A stretch of DNA of 64,000 nt from Laccaria trichodermophora. Its lineage: Eukaryota; Basidiomycota; Agaricomycetes; Agaricales; Hydnangiaceae. The position numbers and the translations under genes are program-made. Position 1 is the stretch's first letter, and the number at the start of each line of letters is the position of its first letter. Location: positions 186,001-250,000 of the forward strand of contig JACTVC010000027.1 of NCBI GenBank assembly GCA_018417955.1, in the 5' to 3' direction. Below are positions 45,377 to 53,685 of this stretch, one piece after another. The notes beneath the pieces are model-generated. The model was not told the DNA's origin and did not search any database. It saw nothing but the letters and a program-made list of their open reading frames with translations.

Positions 45377-46286
45377 GGAAAGGACATTGCCAACAGTTGA
45401 GAGTGAACGAGTCAGTGGTGGTGCCCAGAATTGACCTTCAAGATCGGCTGCAAAAGTCCACCGATGAAGGTACGCCCTGGTTAGTGGGGTCGGTGCCTGT
45501 GGTCCTGGATATCGAATCCGTCGGATGAGCTTCCAGAGGCTTCCTCAGGTCTCCGCAAGGTCTCCCTGCAACAGAAGCACATTCGACAGAGTCCAGCCCT
45601 TGCTCACGAAGCAGAAACCTGCAGAAACTTGAAGGCAATTGTTCGTGTGCGAATGCAATGATCATCTTGTTTTGTTTCGTAGCTTCACCGGATCAATACC
45701 TGGTGCAGGGAGTTTAATTGGGAGCTGCTGTTGTGCATGAAGCTTCAACAAGCGCATGAGTTGATCATGAGTTGTGTCACGAAGCTCGGTGTTGTTGATA
45801 AATTATCGAGATCCTACCAAGATTTGAGTGCATCTACTTGTCTACGCCTTCTGTGAAATTCTTGGCGACAAGAGTGAAAATTGCGGAAGAGGTATGAAGA
45901 TTTGCAATTGCGAGGCGACAGAGACTATTACCGGCAAACTTCGGAGCTTGAACTGTAATTCACTAGTACTGGTTCCGCATCTGCACTCCGACTTGGTCGC
46001 CAGTTTACAACAAACCAGGCCTCGACTCCTGTCACGGTACAACCGGGACCTTGAAATTCCCTTGTTCTGTTCTTGATCTCACACGTTGCAACTTATCGCA
46101 AACTTGTAGATTATTTTTCGGTGCTAAAGCTAACTAACTACAATGCCTCCCGGTGATCCATGGTATAAATAGGTATCTACGAGGGCCTACAAGTTCTTAT
46201 CTCGACAACCTTGCAAGAATTTTTTGGCGCCTCCACAAGTGGTGAACTCCAGGCTGAGGAAAACGAGGGCTCCTATATCATTGACC
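45377..46286. other. Intergenic region upstream of the DUF6533 gene
   Basis: No supported gene. Short frames on both strands are not conserved-looking. The 3' part should contain the promoter of the DUF6533 gene; a TATAAATA word lies near 46164. Confidence 0.45.
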
Positions 46287-47887
46287 ATGCAGTTCGATCC
46301 AGTGTCGATGTGAGTGACTTTCGAATGACATTCGAGTTTGGTGCTCATTTCCAAGTTGACACATCAGAAATGCAAGTTACTACCTCACCCTCATCTCCTT
46401 CAGCAAGTATCTCCTTACCTTCCTCATCTCACCCGGACTAACCAGGCTCCGATAGCAATCCTTGTGCATGAATATGTTCTCACGTTTGTTGAAGAGGTCG
46501 ACAGGATGTGGTATCCGACATTCCGCGTCCCCTGTATGAGCTGGAATTGGGCCTCGTTCTTCTTCTATCTCAACCGATATCTCATTTTGTTCAGCCATGG
46601 ACCTGTCATAATGGAATTTTTCTGGGCAACATCAAATTACCACGACAAATTGCAAGTATGTGGATTATCTTATCTTTCTTTCGGTTCCGGCTCTCCATTT
46701 CCACCATCCAAGAGACAAAAAGCTCACTAATTTTAACACTCACAGACGTCCGTCCTCCTTCAGTGCTTCCGAGCGTCACCCTCCTCACTGACGCTCGCCC
46801 AGCTGCCATGCCCTCCAATCATACCATCAGTATTTGGCGATCGTCATTCAAGTCATCATTTCCTGTACGTCGGCCATTCAATCGACTGGTCGAAGGATAT
46901 TAATGACGTGAAGGCATGCTTATAATGCGTGTATACGCTCTCTATGAACGCAGTCGCAGAGTCTTGGCGCTGTTGGCTGGATTGGCCATCGGCGCCGTTG
47001 CATTTGGTTGTGTGAGTAAACTTTCAACGATTTACGAAGCGACGTTTTGAATTTTATATCGGAAAGTGGTCGATTCTTAGCGGGAAGGATCACGTTCCAG
47101 ATATCGATCAAGTCCTTCCTGTGGGGTGCGTTGCTCAACTGACGCGTGGCCAGTACGTGTCAATATTTTCAGTTCCTCCATGGTTTCAATAACGCAATTT
47201 CCCGATTTTAGGGCGATTTGTGGGTCTACTTAAAATTCTCAATAATGGCGCAGATACCATGATGTTTTTGAATAGACATTGGAGCCGCCTGGGGGGGCAT
47301 GCTGCTCTTCGACATTGTTGTTTTCGCCATGACAGCTCTGAAGTCCCTTACCCTCCAGTCAAAGGGGCAAGATTTGATTAGTGTACTGCTACGCGACAGC
47401 ATGTATGCTATCATTCCCGCTTATGTCCTTGCTTCTAATCTCCATTTCTATCTCTTGTCTCTAGGCGCAATATATTTTAGGTACTTCTTTCTCGGCGGTC
47501 CAGGAGCAGAATTCTGACTTACTCTGTTTTGACAGTGTGATGATGGTAGCCAACTTGGCTAACATCCTTACCTTTGTGGTAAGTCATACATCTGTTACTT
47601 AATTTCTTAGTTGGCTGACTGGTGTCCAGCTCGGAGGGGTAAGCCTGACAATATCCGCCCTCTGGTAACACTAATTATCTGATCATATTTTCAAGCCTTT
47701 TACGAGGGGTGTCGGCACAATATTCGTGAACATGTGAGTTCTTCTTTTCATGAAATCATTGAGTACTAACGCCTGTGTGTATCTTTTCTCACAGAATCTC
47801 CTCAGTGATGATTTCCAGACTCATGCTGAACCTCCACGATCCCAATCTGGTGCGGAAGGGACGGTCAGGCGAACCGGGTATGGACTC
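46287..47887 (+). pseudogene. DUF6533 membrane protein, 5' part, disrupted by a transposon
   Basis: Small exons separated by introns of 45-70 nt encode a basidiomycete DUF6533-type seven-helix membrane protein. Recognisable parts are EYVLTFVEEVDRMWYPTF (first loop after a helix), LIMRVYALYERSRRVLALLA (the typical R-VYALYxR word), GAAWGGMLLFDIVVFAMTAL and the late helix with MMVANLANILTFV. The cytoplasmic tail starts SRLMLNLHDPNLVRKGRSGE. The ATG at 46287 fits a first exon, but the junction of the second exon near 46430 does not join cleanly, so the 5' structure is uncertain. The coding frame runs into the 9-bp target site TATGGACTC and is cut by the 5.6-kb element, resuming at 53469. Function of the family is unknown. 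Confidence 0.8.
47879..47887. repeat. Target-site duplication, left copy
   Basis: TATGGACTC, repeated exactly at 53460-53468 on the other side of the element. Confidence 0.95.
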
Positions 47888-48106
47888 TAGTCTCGGAAAC
47901 CCATCCTCTTTGGGCACCCTTCCCAATTTGGGTCCCTTCCCTTAAGAGTCTGGGAACCTTCCAACGACATCAGCATACCTTTGTCTTCGCCAATTTCTCG
48001 GCGGTTATGTAAGCTTTATGTCCGCTTTCGACGCCCTTTCTGAGCGCGTCGTTATCATCGCGTCCTCATCGCCAGTCCATCCCTTGCGTTATCCGCTCCA
48101 TATACC
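47888..48106 (+). repeat. Left terminal inverted repeat (219 bp)
   Basis: 217 of 219 positions match the reverse complement of 53241-53459. It contains the promoter region of the DUF6589 gene, whose ATG lies 30 bp inward. Confidence 0.95.
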
Positions 48107-48135
48107 TTCATACAATCTAGTTCTGTCATCTAGCT

Positions 48136-50926
48136 ATGTATAATCAATCAGATCCCCCTTTCATGCGCTTCACTCTGCTTGGTTTTGATGAAAACACCAA
48201 CATCGAAGAACCAGATGCTCTCAGCTCTCCCGGCCCCCACTCATCTCCCATTCCCTACCAGCGAGTCAATATATCCCAAGGAACTCAGTTCACGAACCTC
48301 CCTGATCTACCTGATGATGATCAAGACTCCAATTACTCTCCCGATCCCCAAACACCCATTAAACGAACTACAGCCCTCAGTGACGAGCAAAAAACCCGTA
48401 TGACCTTGGCTTTCATGCGAGATTTCAATCGATTTTCCCTTCATCAATTTCTTCAAACTCTCTTTACCTCAGATGATGCAGGCATCAAGAATTTTGCCAA
48501 CACATTTCTGGCTGGTGACGGAGTTAATCCCATAATGGATCTTTTGTGGAAGGGAGGCGGAGAGCTCAAAAATCCTAAGTTGACAGCTCGGGTAGTGGAG
48601 AAGGCAGCTTTGGCCTGTGCTAAAGAAGCCAGCTGGCTTTCCGATTGTGCTTCTGAAGGTGCACATCAAGAGGATGCCAAATATCTGCGTGTGTCGTCTC
48701 GAGATGTAAATGTGAAGCTGATCAACAATTTTCGGATCGATGACCTCCGTGTTCGCTATGACCGTGTAACTCCCCACCTGCAAGCTATTTTGAATGCAAT
48801 AATTGCAAGGGACAAGAAGATATTGGCTCCAGGCAGTCGGGATCCAGATGCAGTACGAATATACATGATTTGCCAAGTTACTACCTTCACTGATAATGTT
48901 GATAAAGGGCAGGACTTTGATAACATCAATGGTTCTCAATTTACGCAGTCGCAGATTAAACTATCACGCTGCTTTAAACGCACTTTTATTCTGGGATAGC
49001 CGTGTACCGAAACACCTTGTACAGGCATTTAATCACTTCGGAATCACTACATCATACCCTTTCCAAGACAAATCAATCACAGCATTGAGCAAGGATGTGA
49101 TCCTACTTGCACGACGAGCAGCAAATGATAGCCAAAAAATCAAATTGCTCCCATATGACAACTTCAACTGGATATCAAAAGCTTGGGAGGCTACGGCTTT
49201 GCATGGATCAATAACTCATGATGAAGTTTCTGCATTGTTGGTGATTTTACCCACTCCAGAAGGGCAGGAGGCCACCAAAGTCACTAGTCTTGATCGATTT
49301 ACTGAAACGGAAGGCACACGGCACAAAATTCCTCCTCGAAAATCTCTCACAGACATTCTGCCTACGGCAGAAGATCAAACTGTGTACCGCACTCATTCTA
49401 TCATTCACACTCAGCATATTTTGAGTGAGGAGATCCAATCTTTCACACAGTTCTCCTCTTCTATTCCACCATTTGAGGACGCAGCAGCTATTACAGCACA
49501 GAAGACTGAGGAATATTATCTTCCAACATTTGATCAAGAACAAGGCTCGACTCGGGGCAATATGCTGGTCTTGGAGCATTATTTTGGAAAGGTTCTCGAC
49601 ATTCCCAAAGAAACATTTGAACACACAATGTTCACTGTTCTTGGAGATCATTTGACAACGGTACGTGACCGTGCAGCTCAGGACCAGCGTGCTGTAGATC
49701 GTTCAACACATCGCTTTGACCATCTTTCAAGCTTTTCTATGGTCAGCGGCCTCATGCATTTTTGCTTGAATTTTATCCATGCAATTGGAGGCAATTATTG
49801 GGGTGACAAAAATGCAGATGCAGTAAGCCTGTCGACTCTACTTGCATCCCTACCCAATCGCAAAGATATCAATCTCCGGAAGGTTGACTACTATGCATGG
49901 CTGCGCTTTCTTGATGTCATTCTACGAGGACTGGTAATTCAAGCTGCATTGAAAATTTGTGATATACAGACACTTGACAATTTCAAGCTGTCAAACATCA
50001 ATCTTGGAGTCCGCACTTATGCACAATTTGTGGAACTTGCAACTTCTGTTGTCGATTCATTTTTATTGCCCTCAGCCTTCCGTCTCGAGAACCTTGGAAT
50101 AAAAACGCTCAAAGGGAACACCCAATCCGGTCATGCCATCCTCCTTATGCACGACCTCATGACACTCCGAGAAATGCAACATGCAATCAAGCATGGCCAT
50201 CCACAGCGCATTTCTCGAATGATCAAATACTGGCTTCCGATGTTTTATGCGGCTGGCAGTCATAACTATGCAAATGAGTGCATGGAGCTTCTGCATAACG
50301 TCACCCATGACTGGCCAAAAGATTATGCCAGTGTGGCTTTCAATGGGATGCTTGTCAATCCCTCAGGAAAGCCAGATGGATGGAAACCAACAGATATCCG
50401 GGTTGAGCACCTTAATGACAAAATCAAGGAGCGAGCACATGGGTCCAATGCAACTCCAGATGTATTAGAAAAAACAACTCCAGCTCTGGGCCATGTTCAA
50501 ATTCTGACTGACCGCCTTTTCGAAGATTTAGGCATCGAAAAAATTAACCAAGAACACGCAAAGGTCTTACAGCATAAAGATGTTGCGATCGTGGCCAAAG
50601 GCTTTCACAAGGCGAAAATCTTCGACTTTGCAGCTGATAAACCTTCCAAACATGCAGTGGTCGACCTGTACCGCTATGGATGTCAGCGCCTGGCCGGGAC
50701 TAATGGAGGGCATGCAAAACATCTCAATCGACACATTTTACGCCTTCGGTCTCGCCACGCCACTGGAAGCACAAATATTGCAGAACCTGACCCGGAACTC
50801 ACACTCGCAACAGATGCCAATCCAAGAAACTACACAATGGGATCCGAGAATGATGAAGTAACAGATCTTGTTGCTCCGGGAGGCACTATCGACAATGATG
50901 AGATATATGATACGGATAATGATTAA
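48136..50926 (+). CDS. DUF6589 protein, candidate transposase
   Basis: The frame starts at the ATG at 48136 and ends at 50926, about 920 residues. It shifts phase near 48877-48907; removing 31 nt with GT...AG ends there makes it continuous, but 31 nt is short for an intron, so a frameshift is possible. The N-terminal 250 residues include a helical segment (KTRMTLAFMRDFNRFSLHQF). After the junction comes LNYHAALNALLFWDSRVPKH, then the DUF6589 core: MFTVLGDHLTTVRDRAAQDQ, SGLMHFCLNFIHAIGGNYWG, ANECMELLHNVTHDWP, and the C-terminal block PDGWKPTDIRVEHLNDKIKE with GSNATPDVLEK. Spaced conserved acidic residues (D in GDHLTT, D/E in the later blocks) would suit a DDE-type nuclease. DUF6589 has no proven function known to me; the transposase role is my inference. 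Confidence 0.8.
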
Positions 50927-51024
50927 TACCTACGTGAAAGAACGAATATTTGAAGTATATTAGAATGTTGTGGATAAGTAATTATCTACTTGAAATAACG
51001 AGTGTCGGAGGTATATTAGAGTTC

Positions 51025-53201
51025 TCAACGTAAAGATAAAATAAATTCACCTTGAGCCAAAGACCCTCTTTCTCTCGTTCCCTCGTCAACAGCAATGCCG
51101 TCCTTCACAGTGTCAGGACATTCGGGTTCTAACCATTCCAAATGATCAAAAGATGTCGAAATGTCTCGAGGATCAGGCACGTCGGTATTGGTGTTAGCTG
51201 CAACCTGTTCAACGCGAACACCAGTTACTTCAAAAAGGATGTCCTTGACTGCTTGCAGGAGTGCGTCGCCTAGATCGTCGAGGTGAGGAATTTGAGCAAT
51301 AGAATCTAGATCATCAACGGCCGAGATCGATTGAGCTCGCCGCACAATTTCTTCCAAGTCGTTATCGCTAACGAGGTCCTCTGCTCCATACGACGGCCAT
51401 TTATCTTTCCACTCCCGTCGCCAAAGCTCGAGGCGCCAACTTTGAAGCTTCTTCAGCATTGTCTTTTTCTGCTGATTGGATGCACTACCTCGCGTTCCTT
51501 CTTTATGCGGTCGAGGATCTTCCATAATCCAGGAGTAATTGGTTGAAAGACGAAGTGCAGGATTACAGTTTGAACAACGGTCACAAAGGGCCAGTGTTTC
51601 TCGCGGTGGGTTCTCAAGCCACACATCGACGACAGCTTCTTGACAGCCTTCTGTTTGGATCAGATCCAGCATTCCGGGATCTTCTGATTTCGGGCATTGA
51701 GTGGAAAGGTTGTCATCGCCGCCTGTCATGGACTTTTCCACGAGAATGACACCTAATGCTGTAATTCCATCTCTTCTTCCCCCCCGACCCCGACGTTGCT
51801 CCCACCGCACAATTGTTAGGCCACGACAGCGGTACTGTACAACCAAAGTGACATGTGGAAAATCCATTCCCGCCCCAATTTTATCAGATCCCAGTAAGAT
51901 TCTTGACTTCCCTGAAATGAAGTCAGCCGTGCAGATTTTTTGGTGTTTCTCGGAAAGTCCAGCATGTAAAATATCAATTAGTGTCACTGGTAAATTCATT
52001 GATCCTAGACGAGTGTGAAACCACCAAAACATGGAAGTCAATGTATCCAAATCGTCTGAATAGATAATGGTTTGTTGGATGGATTCAGCTGTGGAATTCC
52101 ATGGCAGAACGAAGGCAAGGTCAAGGAATGACGAAGCTGGATGTTGCATGTGTGAAATAATTGTTGACAGTTCAGGCCGAAAATTTCCTAGGTTGATAAG
52201 GTGATAGTCTGGCCGTAGGCCAGCGAATATTTGAAGAGAGTCGCGGTATCGTTTGGGCAATGTCGCGGAAATGCAGACCAAAGGAGCATCGGTCCCAATT
52301 ATGGTCCGCAAGATATTCAAGCGTGCATAGCCAGGCCGCCAAGAATGACTTTCATGCGGGACATGAGCCTCGTCAATATACACACCTGACAGTTGAGCCT
52401 GAAAGGACTCAGAGTGAAGAACCCGCGCAACGCCAGGCGTCTCGAGCATCTCGACACACGTGTAAATGACATGTTTCTCCCCACCTCGAGCAATTTCCTC
52501 AAGCTCTGCTTTGCCGTTTACACCAGAGTGAAGGAAGGTACATTTAATGTTTGAACCGGAATGTCTATTACACATGAGGTAGCTTTCAATACATGGCCGG
52601 TAAATCTACTTCTCGAAAACCCGCACCGTTGCTCGCCCTGAAAACCCAAGCTTGTATATGGTATAACAACCATGGCAATCGCTTTTTTCTGCACTAAGAG
52701 AGGGAGGACCCAAAGCAGAGACTTTCCGGCCCCCGTTGGGGCAATGACGCATAGATCCCGCCGCCGAGACAGGATAATGTTTGATGCCTCAACCTGATAG
52801 TCTCGGAGATGTTGTCCCACTTTCAGTACTCCCTCGGAGATTGCTAGCTCATTCCAACGTCGTGCAGAAATGCTCTCCATTGCTGCGAGTTTCTGGAAGT
52901 TGGAGAACGCGAAGGCCTGCTGTCGAGGATGGCCTGGATTGTTGAGCTTGTATGGTGTGTATGACGGTGTCTTGGGCTTTGATTCATAGCCATTTCGATA
53001 GATTTTCCGGGACTTTTGGCTGGCAAGTGGACGTTGTGGGGTGGTGTAGGATAAGTTTTGGTTGAGAGTAAGGAATGGTGGGCGTATCGCGATAGGAGTG
53101 GAAGGTGAAGGTGATGTTGGTGAGGACAATGGGAAATCGTTTTGATCGTTGATTCGAGGACGTTTGGGTAGCCGAGGTTGCAAAGGAGTGGAGTTGAGCA
53201 T
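51025..53201 (-). CDS. RecQ-like DEAH-box helicase
   Basis: Two exons, 53201-52627 and 52582-51025, with a 44-nt GT-AG intron, giving 710 residues. Superfamily 2 motifs are in order: Q-type pre-motif (LRDYQVEASNIILSRRRDLC), Walker A APTGAGKSLL, DEAH in VYIDEAHVPHE, motif III VCISATLPKRY, motif IV IIYSDDLDT, motif V LGSDKIGAGMDFPHV and motif VI QRRGRGGRRDG. A Cys pair (CDRCSNCNPAL) may replace the RecQ zinc site. The N-terminal 130 residues are basic and disordered. It should unwind DNA with ATP. All motifs look intact. Convergent to the DUF6589 gene within the same TIRs, it probably assists mobility or repair of the donor or target; this is inference. Confidence 0.9.
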
Positions 53202-53240
53202 GGTAAAGCCTTAATAGAGATAGAAGTATGAGTTTATAGG

Positions 53241-53459
53241 GGTATATGGAGCGGATAACGCGAGGGATGGACTGGCGATGAGGACGCGATGATAACGACG
53301 CGCTCAGAAAGGGCGTCGAAAGCGGACATAAAGCTTACATAACCGCCGAGAAATTGGCGAAGACAAAGGTACGCTGATGTCGTTGGAAGGTTCCCAGACT
53401 CTTAAGGGAAGGGACCCAAATTGGGAAGGGTGCCCAAAGAGGATGGGTTTCCGAGACTA
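53241..53459 (-). repeat. Right terminal inverted repeat (219 bp)
   Basis: Inverted copy of 47888-48106. It lies 40 bp upstream of the helicase start codon and so probably holds its promoter. Confidence 0.95.
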
Positions 53460-53468
53460 TATGGACTC

Positions 53469-53685
53469 CACTGTAGGTGTTTGTCCAAACATCTCTACTT
53501 TGGCCCACACAAACTATCCCGGAAATTCGAATGATGGCTGGGTACCAACGGATATTTCTAATGCAGCTTATGAATTGGGCGAGGAAAATAATGGATATCG
53601 TGGTCCTGGTCGACCCTCCGCCGGTAAGCGTTTCTTTCTCATGGGCAGCTTGAACTCAATTTTGAAGATCAGGAATTTCCTGTAG
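53469..53685 (+). pseudogene. DUF6533 protein, C-terminal tail beyond the insertion
   Basis: The frame continues exactly in phase after the second TSD copy (STVGVCPNISTLAHTNYPGN) and stays open to a stop at 53683-53685. The tail is soluble, with a Gly/Asn/Glu-rich segment. A GTAAGC at about 53623 could instead start a final intron. It shows that the element sits inside the coding sequence of the DUF6533 gene. Confidence 0.75.

Follow-up and report, generated by a model that had tools for sequence, protein, structure and literature searches.

Which kind of mobile element carries a DUF6589 gene together with a gene for a RecQ-like helicase, and which of the two proteins moves it? This question is raised by a locus of the mushroom Laccaria trichodermophora at positions 47888..53459 of the window, i.e., the 64-kb stretch of contig C20 that was analyzed here in the context of the whole genome (59.0 Mb, 77 contigs). 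We consider the locus to be a complete, apparently autonomous cut-and-paste transposon, most likely of the AcademH family, with DUF6589 as its transposase and the helicase as a dedicated partner, and assign this reading a probability of roughly 0.78.

The boundaries of the element were determined by an ungapped comparison of its inverted arms (47888-48117 and 53230-53459), which are 97% complementary. Mismatches occur at positions 88 and 198, followed by 220, 221, 222, 226, and 228. Because the arms diverge from position 220 onward, the terminal inverted repeats (TIRs) were set at 219 bp with two mismatches, the left one (47888..48106, plus strand) starting with TAGTCTCGGAAACC and the right one covering 53241..53459 on the minus strand. 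Both size and identity of the arms are far beyond chance. A perfect 9-bp target site duplication (TSD), TATGGACTC, is found on both flanks (47879..47887 and 53460..53468). Coordinates, repeats, and duplication are thereby exactly those of the original prediction, which had been made from the sequence alone and which also suggested looking for empty sites. The element interrupts a host exon, and joining of the flanks with a single TSD yields a continuous reading frame. These joined flanks (400 bases) align across the junction to C20:160656-161050 (83%) and C26:408046-408287 (72%), where the target stretch is present once, as CATGGACTC and TTTGAGTTC, and without the element. The two empty sites are paralogous, not allelic. 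The insertion was precise and accompanied by a 9-bp duplication.

The interior consists of two intact, convergent genes, each open after splicing of one GT-AG intron; as predicted, no other gene was recognized. The DUF6589 gene lies on the plus strand (exon 1, 48136..48852; exon 2, 48908..50926), with its 55-nt intron (48853..48907) fitted by eye to the homologue P0006, and encodes 911 aa free of stops, the core of which is covered by the DUF6589 domain (PF20231, E 1.1e-94). On the opposite strand, matches to the DEAD and Helicase_C domains define a helicase gene of 704 aa, comprising exon 1 (53201-52627) with motif I (APTGAGKS), a 62-nt intron (52565..52626), and exon 2 (52564-51025) with Helicase_C and the DEAH box; APTGAGKS, DEAH, and QRRGRGGR were all read directly in the translation. 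The nearest solved structure to its homologue P0125 is RECQL5 (E 2.3e-15). Matches of P0125 to RecQ family models remain well below their cut-offs, so we call the protein RecQ-like and not clearly a host RecQ. In PADLOC, P0125 also matched two helicases of bacterial defence systems, DpdF (3e-28) and PsyrT, which we take to reflect a common helicase core and no kinship. Overall, the element is an apparently intact cut-and-paste DNA transposon, and since both frames are open, it may be autonomous.

DUF6589 is the best candidate for the transposase, as had been proposed. We aligned 75 proteins of the window's DUF6589 subfamily and 108 of a second subfamily, represented by a divergent frame on contig C45 of the same genome, omitting shorter proteins. 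The two representative frames, those of the window and of C45, share 23% identity. Positions kept at ≥93% in the first and ≥90% in the second alignment include D323, D486 (100% in both), G520, H523, E696, and E699, the carboxylates and H523 being encoded by exon 2. Both subfamilies thus have a D-D-xxxH-E pattern in common, in which the first position of the xxxH motif is a glycine (G520xxH523). Its retention in subfamilies with only about 23% identity makes DUF6589 a probable DDD/E transposase, and catalysis by this protein is what we infer from the conserved residues. Two further points enter the assignment: apart from the helicase, no gene other than DUF6589 was recognized, and DUF6589 also occurs in other elements that have 9-bp TSDs. 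The weak Pfam matches of DUF6589 proteins (Exonuc_V_gamma, 0.058; PAP2, 0.021) were taken as chance.

In terms of distribution, PF20231 matched 61 places in this genome and none in 14 control genomes. The closest homologue stems from Laccaria bicolor (96% identity over 76% of the query), and the C45 frame is 93% identical to a frame of L. amethystina over 56% of its length, both of which point to a Laccaria as the probable host. The named species among 240 listed hits (the best 120 of 142 and 120 of 435), many of which carry no species name, belong to the Agaricomycetes, in homologue searches whose coverage did not extend to animals. Animal proteins named DUF6589 presumably exist as well, as would be expected of AcademH.

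The helicase and DUF6589 genes travel together, as seen from their tight linkage and co-divergence. Neighboring helicase matches were merged, reducing 23 matches to 21 places in the genome, and 13 of these (the query's own included) have a DUF6589 match no more than 10 kb away. The zone defined by this distance represents 1.4% of the genome. For homologues from other genomes, an identical size of the longest contig was utilized as a proxy for the same contig. On this basis, 40 of the 102 helicase homologues share the exact size with one of 119 DUF6589 hits (the best 120 of 142, one being without contig), compared with 0 to 4 pairs in controls with the size offset by 1 to 5. Species names agree in all 29 pairs with both members named, and the Arthromyces matolae pair carries the adjacent locus tags H0H93_015957 and 015956. 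After exclusion of two ambiguous pairs at size 4182, the divergence matrices of helicase and DUF6589 correlated with r = 0.911 over 38 pairs (maximum of 9999 permutations, 0.357), part of this co-divergence being expected from species descent alone; the nearest neighbor was concordant in 17 of the 38. Gene orientation varies, the genes being convergent in the window and divergent at the three paired loci on contigs C34, C22, and C29.

These three loci belong to four DUF6589-helicase pairs examined with 10 kb around each, the fourth being on C45. Ends of the type TAGNCTCG and a perfect 9-bp TSD enclose C34:713521-719968, C22:528353-535950, and C29:74814-81228, demonstrating further TAGNCTCG-ended loci with duplication and gene pair, for which the original prediction had proposed to search, and showing that such pairs are bounded by TIRs elsewhere, too. 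Together with the TIRs and TSD of the element in the window and the paralogous empty sites, they bear out its description of a closed mobile unit. On either side of the C45 pair lies a copy of a 0.69-kb repeat with ends TACAGTCGC, the two copies being inverted. Loci on C33 and C51 showed one end only within 8.5 kb and were left out of the count. A longer end pattern derived from C34, C22, and C29 (TAG N CTCG ... CCAG N C) gave 163 matches in comparison to 14 for the reversed control. Among the matches listed (up to contig C23), 16 end pairs were chosen by eye, and the nine with the fewest letters were examined. A 17.9-kb element on C4 with DUF6589 and helicase matches has a perfect 9-bp TSD, and a 6200-bp element on C18 with both genes has one of 8/9 bases. 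Five miniature inverted-repeat transposable elements (MITEs) of 123-165 bp (e.g., C2:1253402-1253534 and C20:34468-34632) each have a perfect 9-bp TSD, with asymmetric ends (TAGGCTCG or TAGTCTCG vs. TAGACTCG). The presence of such small MITEs suggests mobilization in trans. At the A mating-type locus of Agaricus bisporus, a 1441-bp non-autonomous transposon with TIRs and a 9-bp duplication, CTAAAGTCC, has been described (PMC10051438) and may be a related element.

In total, 15 paired-end loci were evaluated, namely the window, a short copy on C23, the loci on C34, C22, C29, and C45, and the nine pattern-derived pairs. The 9-bp TSD was perfect in 11/15, matched at 8/9 bases in 1/15, and was absent in 3/15; 11/15 is not an unbiased rate because ends of this kind were what the search for the C34, C22, and C29 loci had been aimed at. 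Two further pairings that arose by chance with an internal motif, L002 and L052, gave TSD values of 1/9 and 3/9, and scanning of viral contigs for the pattern confirmed 0/42 matches. An apparent base preference of the TSD (C at position 9 in 9/11) was discarded, as it was post hoc and became inconsistent once the asymmetric elements were oriented by hand.

The C23 copy belongs to the window's own family. Querying the genome with the TIR, as suggested in the original prediction, returned eight places, i.e., the two ends of the element itself and six on contig C23. There, a short copy of 1587 bp (C23:763149-764735) possesses both ends, a perfect 9-bp TSD of its own (ATATCTGGC), and helicase remnants; no DUF6589 match was found on this contig. 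At least one further copy therefore exists, whereas a complete lack of copies would have spoken against the original prediction. The next best DUF6589 of the genome over a long stretch is 29% identical to that of the window.

Several observations weigh against the proposed reading. In the genome, a single full-length member of this family was found. The window's own ends miss the longer pattern, having CCCATC in place of CCAG, and TAGNCTCG is the sole end feature common to this element and the other families. In the genome, neither TAGNCTCG alone (3298 matches vs. 5873 for the reversed control) nor TAGTCTCGGAAAC with ≤1 mismatch (43 vs. 108) is enriched. Three loci with suitable ends do not show the duplication: the pair at C45:314071-321487 (L049) has TAGNCTCG on both sides and no TSD (0 and 5/9), C10:772261-777334 (5074 bp, a helicase match inside and no DUF6589 match) gave 0/9, and C6:1194630-1201215 gave 2/9. 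On the protein level, D503, D735, E739, and D797 are conserved as strongly as the proposed triad, which leaves more than one possible choice of catalytic residues; no known DDE family was among the Pfam matches of ten DUF6589 proteins, and a profile search of the PDB gave 0 hits to a solved structure. The misfit of the end motif leaves our confidence unchanged because the case is built on the TSD and the gene pair.

Considering known transposon groups, the AcademH family, reportedly described by Kojima in 2020 (Mob DNA 11:15), is the closest in its description; the nuclease of the related AcademX is XPG, and Helitrons are not known to have a TIR or TSD. AcademH comprises Academ transposons that encode a helicase, occur in animals and fungi, and have TSDs of 9 or 10 bp (PMC10045372); in Basidiomycota, Ascomycota, and Mucoromycota, they are present in low copy number (PMC10799480). 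The element presented here agrees in encoding a helicase (DEAD and Helicase_C), in its 9-bp TSD, and in its basidiomycete host. It therefore most likely represents a new AcademH family with an intact copy, a placement short of proof as AcademH was compared by description, and on the best reading DUF6589 would be the AcademH transposase domain. The remark of the original prediction that no named superfamily with this content was known is probably not supported. In another agaric, Marasmius oreades, putative non-autonomous Academ elements are reported to be widespread (PMC8290104). A term search in the main text of a study on transposable elements of Laccaria bicolor (PMC3411680) yielded neither "helicase" nor "9 bp", "9-bp", or "TSD".

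Other helicase- or Academ-related groups fit less well. AcademX would share an Academ-type transposase if the element is Academ. Its TSDs measure 3 or 4 bp, a contrast to AcademH seemingly tied to helicase vs. nuclease (PMC10045372), and it was ruled out by the 9-bp TSD and the absence of an XPG domain match in the four reading frames of the window that were scanned. Helitrons likewise bring a helicase within a transposon; as they carry PIF1 and Helitron_like_N (PMC10799480), and the element here has TIRs and a TSD, they were set aside. KolobokH, in which a Kolobok transposase would act with a RecQ helicase, is attractive as a fungi-only DNA transposon group carrying just this helicase type (PMC9587614). 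Kolobok elements duplicate the 4-bp TTAA and have 5'-RR...YY-3' ends (PMC9587614), whereas TSDs here are varied 9-mers and ends are TAG...CTA; because of the TTAA duplication, KolobokH is excluded and retains a negligible likelihood.

A more serious competitor, which we regard as unlikely but worth weighing, is that DUF6589 elements form a superfamily of their own apart from Academ, using a DDD/E transposase and a RecQ-like helicase, whose helicase and TSD length just happen to coincide with those of AcademH. In its full form, likewise doubtful, this superfamily would be Agaricomycetes-wide, with TAGNCTCG ends, 9-bp duplications, MITEs mobilized in trans, and a dedicated RecQ-like helicase setting the long stagger. 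DUF6589 was not mentioned in the literature searched, no other Pfam family exceeded the cut-off for the ten DUF6589 proteins, the related families possess their own end motif, and the two genes are separate in either orientation, all of which favor this idea; against it stands the joint match of helicase, 9-bp TSD, and basidiomycete host with the AcademH descriptions. Far less probable is a helicase captured from the host as a passenger without part in transposition. Helicase capture by transposons is discussed (PMC10799480), and the orientation relative to DUF6589 varies among families, but the recurrent linkage across many Agaricomycetes, the matched divergence (r = 0.91), and the open frame with motifs in place speak for a dedicated function.

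Under the preferred AcademH reading, the DUF6589 protein would bind the element ends (TAGTCTCGG here), cut with an RNase H-like D-D-E center, and join them to the target at a stagger of 9 nt, the repair of which would give the 9-bp duplication. The RecQ-like helicase might separate the DNA strands at the element ends, at the target, or at the gap in the course of excision, joining, or repair. We infer this helicase role, as well as a present activity of the element and its AcademH membership, from the features described above. DUF6589, so far a domain of unknown function, would thereby gain a likely job as transposase, and DUF6589 proteins, which the annotations of many mushroom genomes list among the "hypothetical proteins" of the host, are better treated as products of probable transposase genes. 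With an intact copy and both of its ends at hand, it becomes directly testable what a RecQ helicase does when a eukaryotic transposon moves by cut-and-paste, and whether the helicase sets the 9-bp stagger.

Regarding the interrupted host gene, the part of the exon left of the element covers 47795..47887 on the plus strand, its start after CACAG being judged by eye, and the frame resumes at 53469. Two short pieces of this gene gave no Pfam match. Relatives of the gene (window positions ~46200-47887, then 53469 onward) lie on C20, at a distance of about 73 kb, and on C26.

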